IMG/VR virus record: IMGVR_UViG_3300027985_000790
Span: 1 to 62,337 of that record
DNA length: 62,337 bases
Strand: one strand, 5' to 3'
Origin: a virus
In this document: positions 4,619 to 44,226 of the stretch, in pieces
How positions within the stretch are numbered: the first letter of the stretch is position 1
Layout: each line of letters begins with the position of its first letter
Translations under genes and position numbers: made by a program
The notes under the pieces: generated by a model
Told to the model about the DNA's origin: nothing
Database searches by the model: none
What the model saw: the letters and a program-made list of their open reading frames with translations, nothing else

Positions 4619-6055
4619 TTAGGTTTCTTCCTCACCCGGCGGTTGTTCCTCGGGTTCTTCCTCGGGAGGAACTGTTTCTTCCGGCGGGGTCTTGTCAAAG
4701 TCGCCAGCCTCTTCCAGGATTTCTTCCACTTCCTCCTCCATCGTGCGACCAGCGCGGACGATTTGGCCCCGCTGCAGGTTCTCGTGGAGGGTAGTGCGGG
4801 AGATGGCTTCGCCTTGCCATGCTTCAACCAGAGCCTTGAGCTCGTCTGAGGTCATTCGGGCTTCAATCCAGTCATGGTTCAGCAAGCAGTCAACTTCGTC
4901 CGGGCTCTCACCGGCCCATACGGCAGCAGCACGCAGCAGCTGGTTAAGCACGGCCTGCGCCATATTGACGACGGAAGTCAGCAGGGACACTTCGGAGCGA
5001 CCGCGCATCCGGGCGGTATCCGTCGTCTCGTTGCGGTTCTTGCCATCGTTTATCATCCGCGCACCGAGAGCAGCCATCCGGTCTTCCTTGTCGTCCATGG
5101 CTTTCTGCTGTGCCGTGATGCCCGCGCCTGTGAACTCGAGCATGCCGCATGTAGCATCCTCCGGCAAGTACCAGATGGTACCTGAACCAATGGACTTAGG
5201 CTTCTTCTGCTCGTCCAAGTTCCCTGCTATCCATGGCGTTGGCTGAGCAGTGAGGTAGAGAGCATGCTCGTAGTCAGCAGAATTCCGGTAGTGTGACAGG
5301 TTCATGTTGACGAGATCCAGCATGGGAGGCTTGCAGGTAGTCGGACGCAGGTCGTAAGCGTTGGCGAAGAAGAAGGGGATGCTAACCTCGTTCTTACCGT
5401 TGACCACCGGCTGGAAGCTACTGACCTCCAGCAACTCCTTGGTCTTGCCGCTGGCGTCGTTCTTCAACTCCCTGACGGTGTAGAGCCCAGCATCATCAAG
5501 GGTGAGCTCCAGATACTCGTGACCGATGTCCCCACCGTTGCTCTCCAAGTCGTCCTTGAGCAGCAAGTAGCACAGCTCCTTCTTGCCTGTCCGCTCGTTG
5601 TAGCGCAGTTTCCAATCCAGGATGTCTTCTGCGAAGTACGTGGTGGCTACAGGAGCCGTCCCCACAGGAGCATTCTTCGGCATATCCAGCAGAATCCCGT
5701 ACCGCCCGAGCGACAAAAGCTCTGAGACGATCTCGTCTACCAGAACTTCCAAAGATGACCCATCTGCCGTGAAGACGTCCCGCACAGCCTCAAGCCGTGG
5801 GGTAAGCTTGAACACAGGGTCAGTGCGCAACACCATGCCTACAAGACCCCGTAGCGTGCGTTCTGCGACGGCGTAGTAAACAGCCCGCATCTTGTATGCG
5901 GCGTACTGTGTGGTGTTCATACCAGAGGGCTTGGGCAAGTACAGCGTGCCTTGCTCTTTCACGCAGTCCTCACCGTCCAATGCGTCTCGGATCTTCCGCC
6001 ACTGTTCGAGACGCAGCGAGTAGCTGGCGTGGCAGAGGGTTGCTATTGCACTCAT
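4619..6055 (-). CDS. Portal protein, DUF4055 family
   Basis: A 478-residue portal candidate. The N-terminal pattern (WRKIRDALDGEDCVK, then YLPKPSG, then RTLRGLVGMVLRTDP) is typical of DUF4055 proteins, which occupy the portal position in many phages. The C-terminal tail, from about residue 445, is a low-complexity run of Glu and Pro. The portal forms the dodecameric DNA channel at the capsid vertex. It lies downstream of the large terminase and overlaps the preceding small gene by four bases. The family assignment is from memory of its pattern, and the role is supported by synteny. Confidence 0.85.
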   Translation of the reverse strand: MSAIATLCHASYSLRLEQWRKIRDALDGEDCVKEQGTLYLPKPSGMNTTQYAAYKMRAVYYAVAERTLRGLVGMVLRTDPVFKLTPRLEAVRDVFTADGSSLEVLVDEIVSELLSLGRYGILLDMPKNAPVGTAPVATTYFAEDILDWKLRYNERTGKKELCYLLLKDDLESNGGDIGHEYLELTLDDAGLYTVRELKNDASGKTKELLEVSSFQPVVNGKNEVSIPFFFANAYDLRPTTCKPPMLDLVNMNLSHYRNSADYEHALYLTAQPTPWIAGNLDEQKKPKSIGSGTIWYLPEDATCGMLEFTGAGITAQQKAMDDKEDRMAALGARMINDGKNRNETTDTARMRGRSEVSLLTSVVNMAQAVLNQLLRAAAVWAGESPDEVDCLLNHDWIEARMTSDELKALVEAWQGEAISRTTLHENLQRGQIVRAGRTMEEEVEEILEEAGDFDKTPPEETVPPEEEPEEQPPGEEET

Positions 6056-8222: not shown

Positions 8223-8675
8223 TCACTCCTCTTCTTCGATAACTTCTGCTTCAGCCTCAACAGTGAGGCCTATCATGGCGGCGAGACGGGCCTTGGCATC
8301 CACGGTGCTTACTTGGATAGGACCGCCACCTTCACCGGTCAGCTCAAGGGTCTTGAGTTGCTGGCGAACGTAAGGAGCTACTTTAGCAAAGGCACTCAAT
8401 GCGAGATTTACATCTGCAAGCACGATCTGCTTTATCTCGCCGGTATCCGGGTCACGGACCTCCCGGTCTTGCATCGCTTGCATACCGATAAGTGCCATCA
8501 TTACGACGGGGTCGAAGTTGGCAACGCCGAACTTTTCTTCCACTACCTTTTGCATCTGTTCCATGAGTACAGCGGCTTTGTTCTTGGTACCACGGCGATG
8601 AAGGCCGCGCTGGCTGCCATCTTTCGCTACCTGCTTGTCTGAATTGATAATTCTTCCTTCACCTTCGCCAGCCAT
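8223..8675 (-). CDS. terS: Terminase small subunit-like protein
   Basis: A 150-residue protein immediately upstream of the terminase operon. The basic N-terminus (SQRGLHRRGTKNKAA) could bind DNA. The middle is helical, with ALSAFAKVAPYVRQQLKTLE followed by LTGEGGGPI, a pattern common in small terminase or terminase-associated proteins, and the tail is acidic. The small subunit recognises phage DNA to start packaging. No clear helix-turn-helix could be pinned down, so the assignment leans on context. It is the first gene after the 1-kb repeat region. Confidence 0.6.
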   Translation of the reverse strand: MAGEGEGRIINSDKQVAKDGSQRGLHRRGTKNKAAVLMEQMQKVVEEKFGVANFDPVVMMALIGMQAMQDREVRDPDTGEIKQIVLADVNLALSAFAKVAPYVRQQLKTLELTGEGGGPIQVSTVDAKARLAAMIGLTVEAEAEVIEEEE

Positions 8676-8725: not shown

Positions 8726-8913
8726 GATCTCTTCATTTAGGTTATTCTGAAAGAATAGGTGACTTCGTGTCAACTATAAAGATAGGTGGAAAATGCCTAG
8801 ATTTAGGCGGTTCTAGCGGTGCAAGGTATAAGGATTGGGATAGAATTTTAGCAGCGCCAAAAACGGTATAACCGGGGGCAGGGATAGTGCTAATCCTGGA
8901 GCTCGCCTGGCGC

Positions 8914-8928
8914 TGATAATGATTATCA
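8914..8928. promoter_or_regulatory. Perfect Fur-box-like palindrome
   Basis: The sequence TGATAATGATTATCA is a perfect 7-1-7 inverted repeat and matches the known Fur operator core of enterobacteria and pseudomonads. It stands at the edge of the repeat array, whose units share the half-site ATTATCA. Whether host Fur or a phage protein binds here is not known. Confidence 0.5.
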
Positions 8929-8946
8929 TTTAGGGGTCCCCGAAAC

Positions 8947-9360
8947 GCGACTCATTATCATCCGCACCCGCAACTGCGAATGATTATCAGTACCCGATGC
9001 AACCGCGAATGATTATCACCTCGCCCTTGACTGCGAATCATTATCAGTCGCCCATGCAAACGAGACGCATTCGCAGACGCATCACCTAATGCGAATCATT
9101 ATCAGTCAACCTCGGAACGCGAATCATTATCAGGTGCAATAGGTGACGCGACTCATTATCAGTCAACCTCGGAACGCGAACCGTTCTCATTCGCATTGTG
9201 GCAAAAGGACAACGCGACTAGGTCTCATATGCACGGAAGGTGATATGCGAACAGGTCTCATTTGCGGGTGATAATCGGTCGCATATGAGGTGCAGGTGAT
9301 ATGCGAATGAGTATCAATTGGGTTGTTATGATGGGACAGTGCAAATGCGACTCATAATCA
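8947..9360. repeat. Array of about 12 copies of GCGANTNATTATCA
   Basis: Copies start at 8947, 8976, 9005, 9033, 9091, 9119, 9148, 9176, 9214, 9247, 9303 and 9347. The first eight are spaced 29, 29, 28, 58, 28, 29 and 28 bases apart, so they share a ~29-bp period; a degenerate copy fills the gap at 9062. Early copies are near identical (GCGAATGATTATCA, GCGACTCATTATCA or GCGAATCATTATCA), while later copies diverge. The stretch ATCAGTCAACCTCGG between units also repeats exactly at a 58-bp distance. The regular period suggests cooperative protein binding on one DNA face. Confidence 0.85.
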
Positions 9361-9655
9361 TTTGCAGTTGGAAATCGGGCGCGGGCAGGACGGCAGCAGT
9401 TGTTTTGCGTCTCGTTCGCATTACACATGCATGTGAACGCAATCGCTTTAACCTATTGCATCACGAATAGCGTATCCTGTTTTCCTATCCGTGTATAAAT
9501 AAAAACCGCATCTGCAACCACAAACATTCTGTCGTAACCCATTGTTCTGTAACCTAAAACAACTCCTTGATTATCACCGTTTATGACCATGTGTGGTTTA
9601 TTCTTATATGCCTAAACCAATGAAAACACTAACAAATTCATGATTATATAAATAA

Positions 9656-9719
9656 AAACCACAAAAACCACACCACGTCTTCGTATGCGCACGTGCGCGT
9701 ACACGCGTGCGCGGATGTG
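9656..9719. repeat. 64-bp repeat copy 1 with Z-DNA-prone core
   Basis: Shares flanks and core with 43635-43698. Bases 9682-9713 alternate perfectly between pyrimidine and purine for 32 bases, mostly GC, AC and GT steps, a known Z-DNA-forming pattern. The left flank carries A-runs and repeated CCAC. It sits between the AT-rich block and the terminator of the next operon. Confidence 0.8.
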
Positions 9720-9744
9720 TTTTCTGTGCCTATGCGCCGCCCAA

Positions 9745-9769
9745 CAAAAAGCGCGACCGAAGCCGCGCC
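9745..9769 (-). terminator. Intrinsic terminator
   Basis: On the minus strand, a GCGCGGC stem closes on a TTCG tetraloop and is followed by TTTTTG. It lies just downstream of the two-gene operon 9789-10133. Confidence 0.85.
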
Positions 9770-9788
9770 TTTCTCGAACGTTTAAACA

Positions 9789-9947
9789 TCAGAAACGATA
9801 CACGACCATCTCGTAAATGAACCAACGCCCAACGTCGTCCCGATACACGATGCGCGTCTCACCGTCGATGAACGTCACCTCGCCTTCGTCTACGTCATAA
9901 ACCACGACCACTTCTGTACCGTGCTGACTGACCGCTGTAAATTCCAT
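9789..9947 (-). CDS. Small acidic protein, unknown
   Basis: A 52-residue protein starting MEFTAVSQHGTEVV with an acidic, beta-strand-like pattern (VVVYDVDEGEVTFIDGET, then IVYRDDVGRWFIYEM). The ATG follows GGGGGAATGAATC and starts three bases after the stop of the upstream gene, and a terminator follows the stop, so it looks like a real second gene of an operon. No family is recognised. Its stop lies two bases after a GTTTAAAC site. Confidence 0.7.
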   Translation of the reverse strand: MEFTAVSQHGTEVVVVYDVDEGEVTFIDGETRIVYRDDVGRWFIYEMVVYRF

Positions 9948-9950
9948 GAT

Positions 9951-10133
9951 TCATTCCCCCATCCAAATGGCGACGCTGTCTTCCGCGTCGCACGTCATAC
10001 ATGCGATAATTTCGGCTGCCTGTTCAATGATAGCCGCGTCCGTTGCGTCATCGCCCAACAATTCACGTGCCTCTGCGATGCAGGCAACGACGAAGGCCCG
10101 GTAGGTTTCATGTCTTTCTGTAATTGCGTCCAT
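9951..10133 (-). CDS. Small helical protein, unknown
   Basis: A 60-residue protein rich in Ala, Glu and Asp, predicted helical, with several Cys (VACIAEAREL, then IIACMTCDAED). The ribosome site TTGAGGA precedes the ATG, and a GTACGCAAA-N16-CATAAT promoter lies about 35 bases upstream. It forms a two-gene operon with 9789-9947. Early-expressed host-takeover genes often look like this; no function is claimed. Confidence 0.75.
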   Translation of the reverse strand: MDAITERHETYRAFVVACIAEARELLGDDATDAAIIEQAAEIIACMTCDAEDSVAIWMGE

Positions 10134-10165
10134 GATGCAATCCTCAATTCGTTTATCACATTATT

Positions 10166-10196
10166 ATTATGACGCATAAATCCTTTATTTGCGTAC
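10166..10196 (-). promoter_or_regulatory. Promoter of the GTACGCAAA class (copy 1)
   Basis: On the minus strand: GTACGCAAA, 16 bases, then CATAATAAT. It drives 10133-9789. Two further copies with identical spacing occur at 10807-10837 and 10869-10899, each in front of a gene with a good ribosome site. Confidence 0.65.
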
Positions 10197-10224
10197 CGAT
10201 TGCAAAAATTCTTTTCATTCTTTC

Positions 10225-10250
10225 TGCGACTGATTCTCATTCGCGCACCT
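10225..10250. repeat. 26-bp direct repeat, copy 1
   Basis: Exact 26-base match to 11176-11201, containing GCGACTGATTCTCATTCGC, an imperfect palindrome related to the 8.9-kb array units. The gap 10197-10459 otherwise holds only a terminator and degenerate versions of the same motif (for example around 10386-10403). Confidence 0.8.
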
Positions 10251-10410
10251 CACAGATCACGTCACATTCGCATCCTATGCACCCATCAATGCACTTGCAT
10301 CAACCAGACATGCGACGCAGCAGCGTGCGATTCACGAGGTTTTACGATACCCCCGGGGAGTATTTCACGAATCATGAAAACACGACTGATACTCATTCGC
10401 ATCAAACACG

Positions 10411-10439
10411 CAAAATAAACGCGATTCAGTTGAATCGCG
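10411..10439 (-). terminator. Intrinsic terminator
   Basis: Minus-strand stem CGCGATTC/GAATCGCG with a four-base loop (10420-10439), followed by TTTATTTTG. It ends the operon 10769-10460. Confidence 0.85.
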
Positions 10440-10459
10440 TCGTTTGTTCAATGCGCCTC

Positions 10460-10561
10460 CTACAGCGCTGCTGAGATTGCACTGAGGGCCATGACCAGCG
10501 CGTCAACGAAAGCCCAACCGATGACCGTCACAACGACGACGACAACCAGAACCTTAGACAT
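10460..10561 (-). CDS. 33-residue membrane peptide
   Basis: Reads MSKVLVVVVVVTVIGWAFVD and then ALVMALSAISAAL, a single hydrophobic segment spanning nearly the whole peptide. The ribosome site GGGAGGTGAATC is excellent, it directly follows 10554-10769, and the terminator follows. It is probably an inner-membrane peptide. Function is unknown. Confidence 0.7.
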   Translation of the reverse strand: MSKVLVVVVVVTVIGWAFVDALVMALSAISAAL

Positions 10562-10769
10562 GATTCACCTCCCGAGCGTTGAGGTAAGCAGACAGCGTGC
10601 GTTCAAGGTAAGACAGCTTGATGTCTACGCTTTCGTCATCACCACAAACGCTGCTGAAGAAGTCGTGACCATCATCCAAGTTGCAATGATGCTCACCTTC
10701 TACATATGCATAAGTGAAGGCGAGGCCATTGGCTGCTGCGAGTCTAGTTACACGAGCAAGAACGTCCAT
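10554..10769 (-). CDS. Small protein, unknown
   Basis: A 71-residue, mildly acidic protein (MDVLARVTRLAAANGLAF, later LDDGHDFFSSVCGDDES). The start follows GGGAGGTGTGTC. It is the first gene of a two-gene leftward operon with the membrane peptide 10460-10561, under the promoter at 10807-10837. No family is recognised. Confidence 0.75.
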   Translation of the reverse strand: MDVLARVTRLAAANGLAFTYAYVEGEHHCNLDDGHDFFSSVCGDDESVDIKLSYLERTLSAYLNAREVNHV

Positions 10770-10806
10770 GACACACCTCCCGATAACAAATTAAACCTTC
10801 ATTATC

Positions 10807-10837
10807 ATTATGACGCATAGCTCACCTTTTTGCGTAC
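10807..10837 (-). promoter_or_regulatory. Promoter of the GTACGCAAA class (copy 2)
   Basis: Minus-strand GTACGCAAA-N16-CATAAT upstream of 10769. Its GTACGCAAA box is one arm of a 12-bp perfect inverted repeat (10828-10839 with 10867-10878) whose other arm is the box of the divergent promoter, so one regulator could control both. Confidence 0.65.
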
Positions 10838-10868
10838 TCGAAAATAAAAAATTTATTTTGCATTGTGA

Positions 10869-10899
10869 GTACGCAAAACCTTTAAAGGTGAATCATAAT
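10869..10899 (+). promoter_or_regulatory. Promoter of the GTACGCAAA class (copy 3)
   Basis: Plus-strand GTACGCAAA, 16 bases, CATAAT, upstream of the gene at 10930. It is divergent from copy 2 across a 27-base AT-rich gap. Confidence 0.65.
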
Positions 10900-10929: not shown

Positions 10930-11139
10930 ATGAACGCTGCTGAATTCCGTGAAACTGTTTTTGAACTCGGTCAGGTCATCACGACGACCAAAGGTGTACA
11001 GCTGACCATTATCGGCTTTGTGCGTGATATGTTGATCTGCGACTGCTCAGGCGAACTGTTCACCGTGCACCGCAATGGCTATATCAGATACTGCGAGTTG
11101 GCGCTTTCTGCTGAGCAGGCCGTCGGCCGAGCTTTCTAA
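10930..11139 (+). CDS. Small protein, unknown, only plus-strand gene of its region
   Basis: A 69-residue protein (MNAAEFRETVFELGQVITTT), with a beta-strand pattern and two close Cys (LICDCSGELFTVH). The ATG at 10930 follows GAGGAT, and a strong terminator follows the stop, so it is a single-gene unit. Being isolated, divergent and separately promoted, it may be an early or regulatory gene; no DNA-binding motif is seen. Confidence 0.75.
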   Translation: MNAAEFRETVFELGQVITTTKGVQLTIIGFVRDMLICDCSGELFTVHRNGYIRYCELALSAEQAVGRAF

Positions 11140-11150
11140 CCTGCTGCACT

Positions 11151-11176
11151 AGCCGAGCCATTGCGCTCGGCTTTTT
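11151..11176 (+). terminator. Intrinsic terminator
   Basis: AGCCGAGC / GCTCGGCT stem with a six-base loop, followed by TTTTT, directly after the gene 10930-11139. Confidence 0.9.
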
Positions 11177-11201: not shown

Positions 11202-11275
11202 TATTGCGTCTAAATCTCATTTACGACCAAGTCGCATTCGTATATGCACCTCCCTGCATGTACGTCTGCGACCGT

Positions 11276-11301
11276 TTTTCAAAAACCCCGAGCGACATTT
11301 T
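11276..11301. repeat. TTTTCAAAA-CCCCGAGCGACATTT repeat, copy 1
   Basis: Near-identical to the tandem pair at 16641-16697. Here it overlaps the 3' end of the gene 11279-11593 and encodes its last residues (NVARGF) and stop. It always lies at the downstream end of a leftward gene. Confidence 0.75.
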
Positions 11302-12989: not shown

Positions 12990-13179
12990 GGTTCACGTCC
13001 TCACCAAAACGTGCTTGGACGGAGAAGAACAGCTCCTCTGCCACTTGGGCTCTCAGACCATCTGTAACATCTTCAAGATCAGATTCGGGTGCTTCCTTCA
13101 TTATCTCGTGAGCACGAAGCATTATCTCATCTGTCAGCATGCTGACGTACTGGCTTACTATCTCGTTGTAGCGGCTCAT
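12982..13179 (-). CDS. Small helical protein, first gene of the 13.2-kb operon
   Basis: A 65-residue protein (MSRYNEIVSQYVSMLTDEIM), helical and acidic in the middle. AGGAGGTGTGCT is an excellent ribosome site, and a TTGCAG-N16-TATAAT promoter lies 40 bases upstream, so this leads an eight-gene leftward operon ending at 11279. Function is unknown. Confidence 0.75.
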   Translation of the reverse strand: MSRYNEIVSQYVSMLTDEIMLRAHEIMKEAPESDLEDVTDGLRAQVAEELFFSVQARFGEDVNHG

Positions 13180-13218
13180 AGCACACCTCCTACTGGTGCA
13201 ATTAATTGGTACAATTTA

Positions 13219-13246
13219 ATTATAATACCTGCCGCCAGCCCTGCAA
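13219..13246 (-). promoter_or_regulatory. Promoter TTGCAG-N16-TATAAT
   Basis: Minus-strand sigma70-like boxes in front of the operon 13179-11279. The same layout, always with a 16-base spacer and a TTG(C/T)A-type -35 box, occurs at 16173, 16449, 21811 and 23802. Confidence 0.7.
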
Positions 13247-15386: not shown

Positions 15387-16133
15387 CTACTCCCCCTTGG
15401 TCTTGTGCGGCACAGGAGCGTCCAGGCCTTCCGGCAGGACCAGGTAATACACCGGATAGGTGTACTCGTCGCTGTAGCCATTAGCTATGGCGTAGTCTCG
15501 CAGGACCAGGTGCTGCTCGATGGTGAAGTCGTCCGGGTGCTGGCTACCTACTTCCTCAATCAGGGGGCAGCCTTGGATAGCATCCAGGAAGTCTTGGGCG
15601 GTATCGAACGAGCAGGCAACCCACAGTTCGTAGCCGCACTTCCACTCAGTGCGCACACCGTAGCCCTTCTGGCGCATATCCCAGTAGCAGGCGGAGCGGA
15701 TGGATGCATCGTCCCAGGGCTGGCCGTCCTTCTTGATGCAGACCCGGCGGAGGTCGTCAATGGTTGCACCTGCAAACAGGAAGTCGATGATCTGTGCTTG
15801 CTTGCTGTTGGCACGAGCGGGGTAAGCGCGTTCATCAGCGGGGCAAGAGATGGAGCCTTTGCGGCGACCAGCGGTCTTTTCAGCGGTAGCCGGCTTGGCG
15901 GCCTTCTTAGCCTTACGCATAAAGACGACGGCGTGGTTGGCAACGTGTACTTGGTCGGCTTCGCTCAGCTCACCTTCCACCATGTCCAGGTAGACGACTA
16001 CTTGGAAGCGGTCATCGCCGTCCACCTTTACAGCTTCAATTTCGAAGTGGTCGAAAGCAGTAGCGGCGGACAAGCGGTCGGTATCACGTTCAGCGGCACG
16101 CTTGGCGGACTTGGTGTTGTTGTAAGTGGTCAT
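15387..16133 (-). CDS. Unknown protein with a winged-helix-like segment
   Basis: A 248-residue protein. The N-terminal ~80 residues are strand/helix mixed and acidic; a basic linker (KKAAKPATAEKTAGRRKGS) follows. Residues ~105-160 (KQAQIIDFLFAGATIDDLRR, then RSACYWDMRQKGYGVRTEW) look like a helix-turn-helix or winged helix of the kind found in phage genes. AGGAGACG precedes the ATG, and a promoter lies just upstream, so it leads the run down to 13790. It may be a regulator; this is inference. Confidence 0.7.
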   Translation of the reverse strand: MTTYNNTKSAKRAAERDTDRLSAATAFDHFEIEAVKVDGDDRFQVVVYLDMVEGELSEADQVHVANHAVVFMRKAKKAAKPATAEKTAGRRKGSISCPADERAYPARANSKQAQIIDFLFAGATIDDLRRVCIKKDGQPWDDASIRSACYWDMRQKGYGVRTEWKCGYELWVACSFDTAQDFLDAIQGCPLIEEVGSQHPDDFTIEQHLVLRDYAIANGYSDEYTYPVYYLVLPEGLDAPVPHKTKGE

Positions 16134-16172
16134 GATACGTCTCCTATTGACGTTGTTTGTTGGTACAATTTA

Positions 16173-16200
16173 ATTATGAATGATAACTGCCTTATTACAA
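16173..16200 (-). promoter_or_regulatory. Promoter TTGTAA-N16-CATAAT
   Basis: Minus-strand boxes 40 bases upstream of 16133, with the same 16-base spacing as its sister promoters. Confidence 0.6.
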
Positions 16201-16476: not shown

Positions 16477-16600
16477 CCTTATTTTGTTGATCTAGGTCAA
16501 AATCCTAATCATTTATAAACCACCTGCTTTGATGCGTTATATTGATAGTGAAGACAAGCGCTGCTCATTTGATAACCGCTTGCATTTGCAGATGATTCTT

Positions 16601-16633
16601 ATTCTCATTTGAGAATGATTCTCATTTGAGAAT
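16601..16633. repeat. Tandem ATTCTCATTTGAGAAT palindromes
   Basis: Two exact 16-bp palindromes in tandem with a one-base gap. Their junction forms a perfect 7-1-7 inverted repeat TGAGAATGATTCTCA (16610-16624), a variant of the Fur-like site at 8914. The layout suggests cooperative binding of dimers. It lies in the gap 16477-16697, which has no gene. Confidence 0.75.
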
Positions 16634-16640
16634 ACGTCTA

Positions 16641-16697
16641 ATTTTCAAAATCCCCGAGCGACATTTCCGTGATTTTCAAAATCCCCGAGCGACATTT
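16641..16697. repeat. Tandem TTTTCAAAA-CCCCGAGCGACATTT repeats, copies 2 and 3
   Basis: Copies at 16641-16666 and 16672-16697, immediately downstream of the stop of gene 16698-17090. A third copy overlaps the end of another leftward gene at 11276. There is no T-run, so this is not a standard terminator; function unknown. Confidence 0.75.
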
Positions 16698-21393: not shown

Positions 21394-21430
21394 TTGCGTT
21401 CTCCTGTGTTTAAACGCTACCACAAAGAGA

Positions 21431-21532
21431 GCCGCCCTGCTCGGAGTCGAACCGAGGACCTTCCCTACCAGTCTGCCATTGCTCGAGATAGCAAGTCGGT
21501 CTGGCTGATCTCACCACTGATCTACAGGGCGG
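21431..21532 (-). tRNA. tRNA-like element with enlarged anticodon arm
   Basis: On the minus strand the acceptor (CGCCCTG/CAGGGCG), D arm (TA GATC AGTGGTGA GATC A) and T arm (CTCGG TTCGACT CCGAG) are all canonical. The central part between D and T arms is ~50 nt instead of ~23. It forms an outer GCCAG/CTGGT stem and an inner TTGC/GCAA hairpin with loop TATCTCGA, with no normal 7-nt anticodon loop. No CCA is encoded. It may be a tRNA with an insertion, a pseudo-tRNA or a tRNA mimic. It is unlike any standard isotype, so no amino acid is assigned. Confidence 0.45.
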
Positions 21533-21599
21533 TTGTCTTTGTGTCCTGGCCTTTTTCCTCGCCAGGGCGGAGGGTTGAGGTTGCTTTCTAGATCATCTA

Positions 21600-21755
21600 T
21601 TAGGAATTAAGGTTTACCCAGGGCCCATAACCCTGTGCCGTGACGGCGGGCGAACCAGTCCAGATTGTAACGAAGCTGGGTCTGAGGGCTTCGTTACGGT
21701 ACGTGCTGTCCACTCCCGTTATGAGGATGAGCAGCCAGAAAAGTAGTAGAATCAC
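21600..21755 (-). CDS. Small secreted or membrane protein (GTG start)
   Basis: A 51-residue protein (MILLLFWLLILITGVDSTYR...) with an N-terminal hydrophobic segment like a signal or membrane anchor, and a Gly/Pro-rich C-terminus. The GTG at 21755 follows AGGAGG; the nearby ATG is in frame with an immediate stop. It is led by the TTGCAG-N16-TATATT promoter. Confidence 0.5.
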   Translation of the reverse strand: MILLLFWLLILITGVDSTYRNEALRPSFVTIWTGSPAVTAQGYGPWVNLNS

Positions 21756-43634: not shown

Positions 43635-43698
43635 AAACCACAAAAACCACACCACGTCTTCGTATGCGCACGCGTGTACACACGTGTGCGCGGATGTG
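43635..43698. repeat. 64-bp repeat copy 2 with Z-DNA-prone core
   Basis: Match to 9656-9719. The core 43661-43692 again alternates perfectly between pyrimidine and purine for 32 bases; it differs from copy 1 at about seven sites, all transitions that keep the alternation. It lies in the divergent promoter gap between the leftward gene at 43514 and the rightward regulator operon. Confidence 0.8.
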
Positions 43699-43747
43699 GT
43701 ATCCGCGGTTCATGAAATCACCGCTTTATTTCAATACGGCGCACGCG

Positions 43748-44043: not shown

Positions 44044-44226
44044 ATGACCAAAGAACAATTTATTGACGCCCAAGACGAGTTGGGATTGAACAACGCTCAA
44101 CTGGGTGCCAAGCTGTTTAAATGTGCCCAAAGTGTGTCGAACTACCGTACTGGCCGGCAGAAAGTTCCACGCTCGGTGGAAGCAGCCATCAAGCTGCTGG
44201 TAGCGCAGAAGCGTGACAAGAAGTAA
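44044..44226 (+). CDS. HTH DNA-binding protein (Cro/CI-like)
   Basis: A 60-residue protein with a clear helix-turn-helix: AQLGAKLFKCAQSVSNYRTG aligns with the Q-S-V-S-N-Y recognition helix of Cro/HTH_3-type regulators. A basic tail (KLLVAQKRDKK) follows. AGGAG precedes the ATG. As the only clear HTH regulator in the window and with its own promoter, it may bind one of the repeated motifs (for example ATAACCGCTT). The terminator follows the stop. Confidence 0.8.
   Translation: MTKEQFIDAQDELGLNNAQLGAKLFKCAQSVSNYRTGRQKVPRSVEAAIKLLVAQKRDKK

Follow-up and report, generated by a model that had tools for sequence, protein, structure and literature searches.

The 62,337-nt window analysed here, which is the whole of an IMG/VR virus record of 62,337 bp, contains three elements (P1, P2 and P3) that are very probably promoters of one class, with the 9-mer GTACGCAAA in front of a CATAAT -10 hexamer. 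Most likely they arose by duplication and serve one small regulon. To the reading in which the box acts positively, in a regulon of paralogous promoters where a factor on GTACGCAAA would replace the -35 element, we assign a probability of about 0.45. The promoters, and the inverted repeat that joins two of them, are the following.

10166-10196, minus strand: P1, with GTACGCAAA at 10196-10188, a 16-nt spacer and CATAAT at 10171-10166
10807-10837, minus strand: P2, with GTACGCAAA at 10837-10829, a 16-nt spacer and CATAAT at 10812-10807
10869-10899, plus strand: P3, with GTACGCAAA at 10869-10877, a 16-nt spacer and CATAAT at 10894-10899
10828-10878, no strand assigned: P2/P3 inverted repeat, two 12-bp arms over both boxes, from the sequence and the alignment of the flanks

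The window contains exactly three instances of the pattern GTACGCAAA-N16-CATAAT, against an expectation of 0.00 from 100 dinucleotide shuffles. The scan tolerated gaps of 14-18 nt and all three matches had 16, so the original prediction of three promoters sharing both boxes at exactly this distance describes the sequence correctly. When all words composed of a 9-mer, a gap of 13-20 and a 6-mer were considered over the whole window, two recurred three times: the promoter word and one located in paralogous coding genes. The promoter word recurs in two registers, because a T precedes CATAAT in all three promoters. No word of this type recurred three times in 10 genomes simulated with an order-2 Markov model. 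Scored at a spacing of 16, P1-P3 each reach 15/15 and the runner-up anywhere in the window, a site within a CDS, reaches 12/15. Three perfect members followed by this gap make the class discrete, and within the window the proposal of a distinct promoter class is borne out. The 9-mer alone, with one mismatch allowed, is not enriched (13 in the window versus 11.6 by chance); the signal is therefore the box/-10 pair and not the box by itself. The second control region (43.5-43.85 kb) holds no GTACGCAAA pair.

The core common to the three promoters is longer, GTACGCAAA-N11-TG-NN-TCATAAT. Its -10 hexamer agrees with TATAAT at five of six positions in every case, and the TG is displaced upstream by two positions relative to a standard extended -10 (TG-NN-T-CATAAT), leaving the promoters without a TGn. 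The anticipated mismatch to the standard -35 box is real: the best match to TTGACA is 3/6 at 18-nt spacing and 2/6 at 16-17 nt, which falls short of a sigma70 -35. TTGACA-like boxes are present at other promoters of the same phage (8773, minus strand, and further upstream regions), and the lack of a -35 is therefore not general there. The 25 bp 5' of the box are 72, 84 and 84% AT, compared with a window mean of 47%, a richness that, by composition alone, is that of an UP element. P2 and P3 are indeed divergent, as had been noticed, and the arms of the 12-bp inverted repeat over their boxes are TTTTGCGTACTC (10828-10839) and GAGTACGCAAAA (10867-10878), with 27 bp in between; the AT-rich centre, common to both promoters, is a possible UP element. 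At all three promoters an ATG with an RBS follows 30-37 nt past the -10.

Comparison of the three copies bears on their origin. Box and -10 are identical (15/15) in every pair, and spacers, flanks and leaders have diverged. P1 and P2 are copies in direct orientation (82% over 38 bp); P2 and P3 form an imperfect inverted duplication, in which 26/40 positions of the upstream DNA are identical through the inverted symmetry. Spacer identity between copies is 10, 4 and 6 of 16. The spacers had been described as different, and their sequences do differ, but they are not independent: P1 and P2 agree at 10/16 and both contain TATGCGT. The related spacers and the P2/P3 flanks thus make the copies paralogous rather than three independent origins. 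An AAGG lies 2 nt further along in P1 than in P2 with the box/-10 distance unchanged. Similarly, AAAGGTGA starts within the end of the box in P2 and, relative to the start of the box, is displaced by a further 7 nt in P3, and both keep the 16-nt gap; that this sequence is common to P2 and P3 could be chance. A 16-nt distance that stays constant despite the shifted spacer sequence fits parts that are read as a rigid unit. This suggests that the distance is under selection, a constraint that, with only three copies, one genome and all of them duplicates, is not fully separable from recent ancestry.

The window phage is a siphovirus, Nanhaivirus-like but diverged. The nearest terminase and DNA polymerase are those of Pseudanabaena phage Pan1 and Dinoroseobacter phages R5C and R26L (Nanhaivirus), with identities of 50-56% for the terminase and 54-59% for the polymerase; the best terminase relative in IMG/VR, G001 (L057), is 64% identical. 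The three operons sit in a mostly non-coding stretch before gene 8223-8675. This gene is homologous to R5C 5380-5823 (50%) and G001 2310-2753 (48%), which likewise precede the large terminase. The original prediction of small operons with terminators stands, with two, two and one genes and with hairpins and T-runs confirmed by folding.

9951-10133, minus strand: P1 operon gene 1, a 60-aa ORFan whose ATG lies 32 nt past the -10
9789-9947, minus strand: P1 operon gene 2, a 52-aa ORFan
9746-9775, minus strand: P1 operon terminator, a hairpin followed by a T-run, by folding
10554-10769, minus strand: P2 operon gene 1, a 71-aa ORFan whose ATG lies 37 nt past the -10
10460-10561, minus strand: P2 operon gene 2, a 33-aa hydrophobic peptide with a single span and a GGGAGG RBS of its own
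10418-10441, minus strand: P2 operon terminator, a hairpin, by folding
10930-11139, plus strand: P3 gene, a 69-aa ORFan whose ATG lies 30 nt past the -10
11151-11176, plus strand: P3 operon terminator, GCCGAGC-loop-GCTCGGC-TTTTT, by folding

In the P2 operon the 71-aa ORF overlaps that of the hydrophobic peptide, and in a simple gene model the P3 gene is the only one on the plus strand in the first 43.8 kb. Homologues were found neither for the five genes in Pfam, nor for four of them in PHROGs, nor for the P3 gene and P1 gene 1 in IMG/VR and phage records. The products, ORFans of 52-71 aa and a 33-aa hydrophobic peptide, give no indication of function, and the early timing and host-takeover role offered for these operons in the original prediction are guesses. 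Pan1 (69046-69183) and R5C (4687-4800) have similar hydrophobic peptides at the equivalent position, a correspondence of position and character and not proven homology.

In the mechanism that we propose, P1 and P2 would have spread by direct duplication and P2 and P3 by inverted duplication, and the three small terminated operons, in the control region that directly precedes the terminase genes, would constitute a single regulon. A host sigma70-type holoenzyme would bind TG-NN-TCATAAT together with the AT-rich UP-like DNA. A sequence-specific factor, phage- or host-encoded, would occupy GTACGCAAA (about -37 to -29), the position at which sigma region 4 ordinarily meets a -35, and would turn on all three promoters together. 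P2 and P3, back to back with their boxes 31 bp apart and with one AT-rich upstream stretch, may compete or be co-activated. A small HTH-like protein (44044-44226, plus strand) was the one candidate found for the regulator; it has a weak match to phrog_14076 (E 0.007), a model of three helices (pLDDT 78) and no match in Pfam or by fold, and with nothing beyond the weak PHROG match it was set aside in this role.

The main rival is a serious one, although we hold it to be unlikely: GTACGCAAA could be an operator, in which case the promoters would fire alone on entry, from the UP element and the -10, and a repressor over the -35 region would later silence all three. The box overlaps the -35 position in each promoter, the P2 and P3 boxes make the 12-bp inverted repeat, the AT-rich upstream region could support a promoter that lacks a good -35, and the phage does have the small HTH-like gene at 44044-44226 (plus strand). 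However, a repressor site does not require a fixed 16 nt between itself and the -10. The box by itself is not a full dyad, P1 is without a partner arm, and CATAAT with no TGn directly before it would be weak if alone. Improbable in turn is the view that host sigma70 reads these promoters through a -35 that is weak and atypical (TACGCA at 18 nt or CGCAAA at 16 nt), and that they are alike through recent duplication only. The 82% identity of P1 and P2 over 38 bp and the location of P2 and P3 within an inverted duplication agree with it, as does the 3/6 match of TACGCA to TTGACA; but 3/6 at 18-nt spacing is poor, and the 9-mer is unchanged in all copies while spacers and flanks have diverged.

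Very improbable is that GTACGCAAA-N16-CATAAT represents the -35 and -10 of an alternative sigma factor, from host or phage. Two boxes at a rigid spacing have the geometry of a sigma promoter, but the -10 is the standard sigma70-like CATAAT and the box is not known to resemble any alternative-sigma -35. Moreover, the window proteins scanned include no sigma-like gene product, and the 22-base P1/P2 core is absent from all 84,980 bacterial and archaeal genomes searched. Fur-type iron control through Fur-box-like -10 regions is hardly tenable: TCATTATCATTATGA at 10799 (P2, 11/14), ACATTATTATTATGA at 10158 (P1, 10/14), the palindromes around the operons at 10225, 10381-10401 and 11176 and the array at 8913-9430 speak for it, but P3 has no such match, TATAAT itself imposes part of the likeness at the -10, the surrounding palindromes carry a different GC-bearing half (TGCGAAT), and GTACGCAAA is left unexplained. 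By eye, no LexA, CRP, FNR, PhoB or Zur site was matched.

The positively acting box that we prefer has parallels in known systems. At the lambda promoters pRE, pI and paQ, CII reads TTGC-N6-TTGC flanking the -35. An activator site over a poor -35 in a small co-regulated set would be the common feature, with the activator in our phage supposed by analogy; unlike the CII promoters, P1-P3 have a single 9-mer, and TTGC-N6-TTGC is absent from their alignment. T4 early promoters combine UP, -35, TGn and -10 elements with excellent -35 and TGn matches (PMC2988021). The window promoters share with them an AT-rich UP-like region and, in the proposed mechanism, the use of host polymerase on phage genes, but not the excellent -35 or TGn. 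In T4 middle promoters the MotA box, centred at -30 and 13 bp from the -10, replaces the -35 (sigma appropriation; PMC2988021). Here too, several promoters have a conserved phage-specific box of ~9 bp before a sigma70-type -10, a box that would replace the -35 if a factor binds it. In contrast to T4, the box is centred near -33 and 16 bp from the -10, it is unchanged in three copies whereas the T4 box tolerates changes, and the sequences are unrelated by eye. No MotA or AsiA homologues were seen among the proteins scanned, which are a part of those of the window. The best reading is that the window promoters may work like T4 middle promoters and are not members of that class, as position and sequence differ. 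What is new here is the sequence; the kind is already known, and this is a lineage-specific example.

A search of relatives, suggested with the original prediction as a check on the class, found the boxes in none of them: the promoter word is absent from Pan1, R5C, R26L, the closest relative G001 and 80 terminase loci. A conserved class in other viruses was also considered and rejected, as an exact scan of IMG/VR gave 40 contigs with one match each, mostly inside reading frames; two coding families recur among these contigs. The TATAAT version gave single matches in IMG/VR, with 29, 23 and 28 at spacings of 15, 16 and 17 among the matches listed, an even distribution that indicates no spacing preference among them. 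A literature search on the 9-mer returned unrelated work only, among the matches listed.

The relatives carry repeated motifs of their own. R5C has three copies of GTCTATGATCTATA and G001 four of GATCACACGTTATAG (one with two mismatches), largely as outward-facing pairs, in the gap before the terminase and at a junction close to the gene for thymidylate synthase. The palindrome TATAASTCGCTTATA occurs in 8-13 copies each in Pan1, R5C, R26L and G001 (two mismatches allowed; L051-L056, L137-L141), many of them immediately 5' of genes and some after TTGACA-like hexamers, and is probably a promoter or operator motif of this lineage; the window has zero copies at up to two mismatches. Like the GTACGCAAA pair it is a repeated promoter-like motif 5' of genes, including a site close to the Pan1 gene for the hydrophobic peptide, but it differs in being palindromic, in its copy number per genome and in sequence. 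The control regions are the same and their repeated motifs differ from phage to phage, which fits a fast turnover of regulator and sites. The boldest form of the preferred reading, in which a new phage factor unrelated to MotA and CII would take over host RNA polymerase by recognising GTACGCAAA, at a rigid distance of 16 nt, instead of a -35 while relatives use the palindromic motif, so that promoter specificity would have been replaced wholesale, is distinctly unlikely. If a phage factor does read the box, the promoters would offer a compact, testable case of host RNA polymerase redirected through a new recognition sequence, would show the speed at which promoter specificity turns over among related phages, and could supply tight co-regulated parts for laboratory use; a merely duplicated host-type promoter would be ordinary annotation.

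Other repeats were recorded in these genomes. A 69-bp direct repeat (9656-9724 and 43635-43703, 88% identical), which contains a GC-rich alternating CACGTGCGCGTACACGCGTGCGC stretch, connects the two control regions that in R5C and in G001 hold the phage's own repeated motif. GTTTAAAC, often as CGTTTAAACG, is strongly enriched across this group of phages: it occurs 15 times in the window versus 0.33 expected, and 16, 17, 20 and 25 times in Pan1, R5C, R26L and G001, in coding and non-coding DNA alike. The Fur-box-like array at 8913-9430 comprises about 16 palindromes (TGCGAATSATTATCAGTCGC) in non-coding DNA before the terminase genes, 0.7 kb from the promoters. A perfect 7-1-7 dyad forms its first core, TGATAATGATTATCA, and eight steps have a mean period of 28.6 bp. 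Further such palindromes lie at 10225, 10381, 11176, 13635, 16593-16630 and 57714, and sites scoring at least 11/14 against TGATAATnATTATCA number 16 in the window versus 0-1 in shuffles. The array may be a Fur decoy, a packaging site or an origin. The same box, GCGAMTSATTATCA, forms close pairs or arrays in five other IMG/VR viral contigs (L046-L050), one of which (L049) has four exact 28-bp repeats at the end of its 61 kb; scans for pairs with gaps of 8-25 nt and 8-20 nt found a comparable pattern in 0 of 84,980 bacterial and archaeal genomes.

A second look-alike promoter set is found at 13165-13223, at 16119-16177 and upstream of 20072; it carries YATAATTAARTT, preceded in two of the set by TTGCAG/TTGTAA-like hexamers. 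At 21400-21600 (minus strand) a tRNA-like stretch (CCGCCCTG ... GGTTCGACTCC ... CAGGGCGG), which neither ARAGORN nor Rfam called, lies in a 429-bp gap. Finally, the 26-bp ATTTTCAAAATCCCCGAGCGACATTT is present three times (11275-11300, 16641-16666 and 16672-16697; 92-100% identical) and is terminator-like at 11275-11300.
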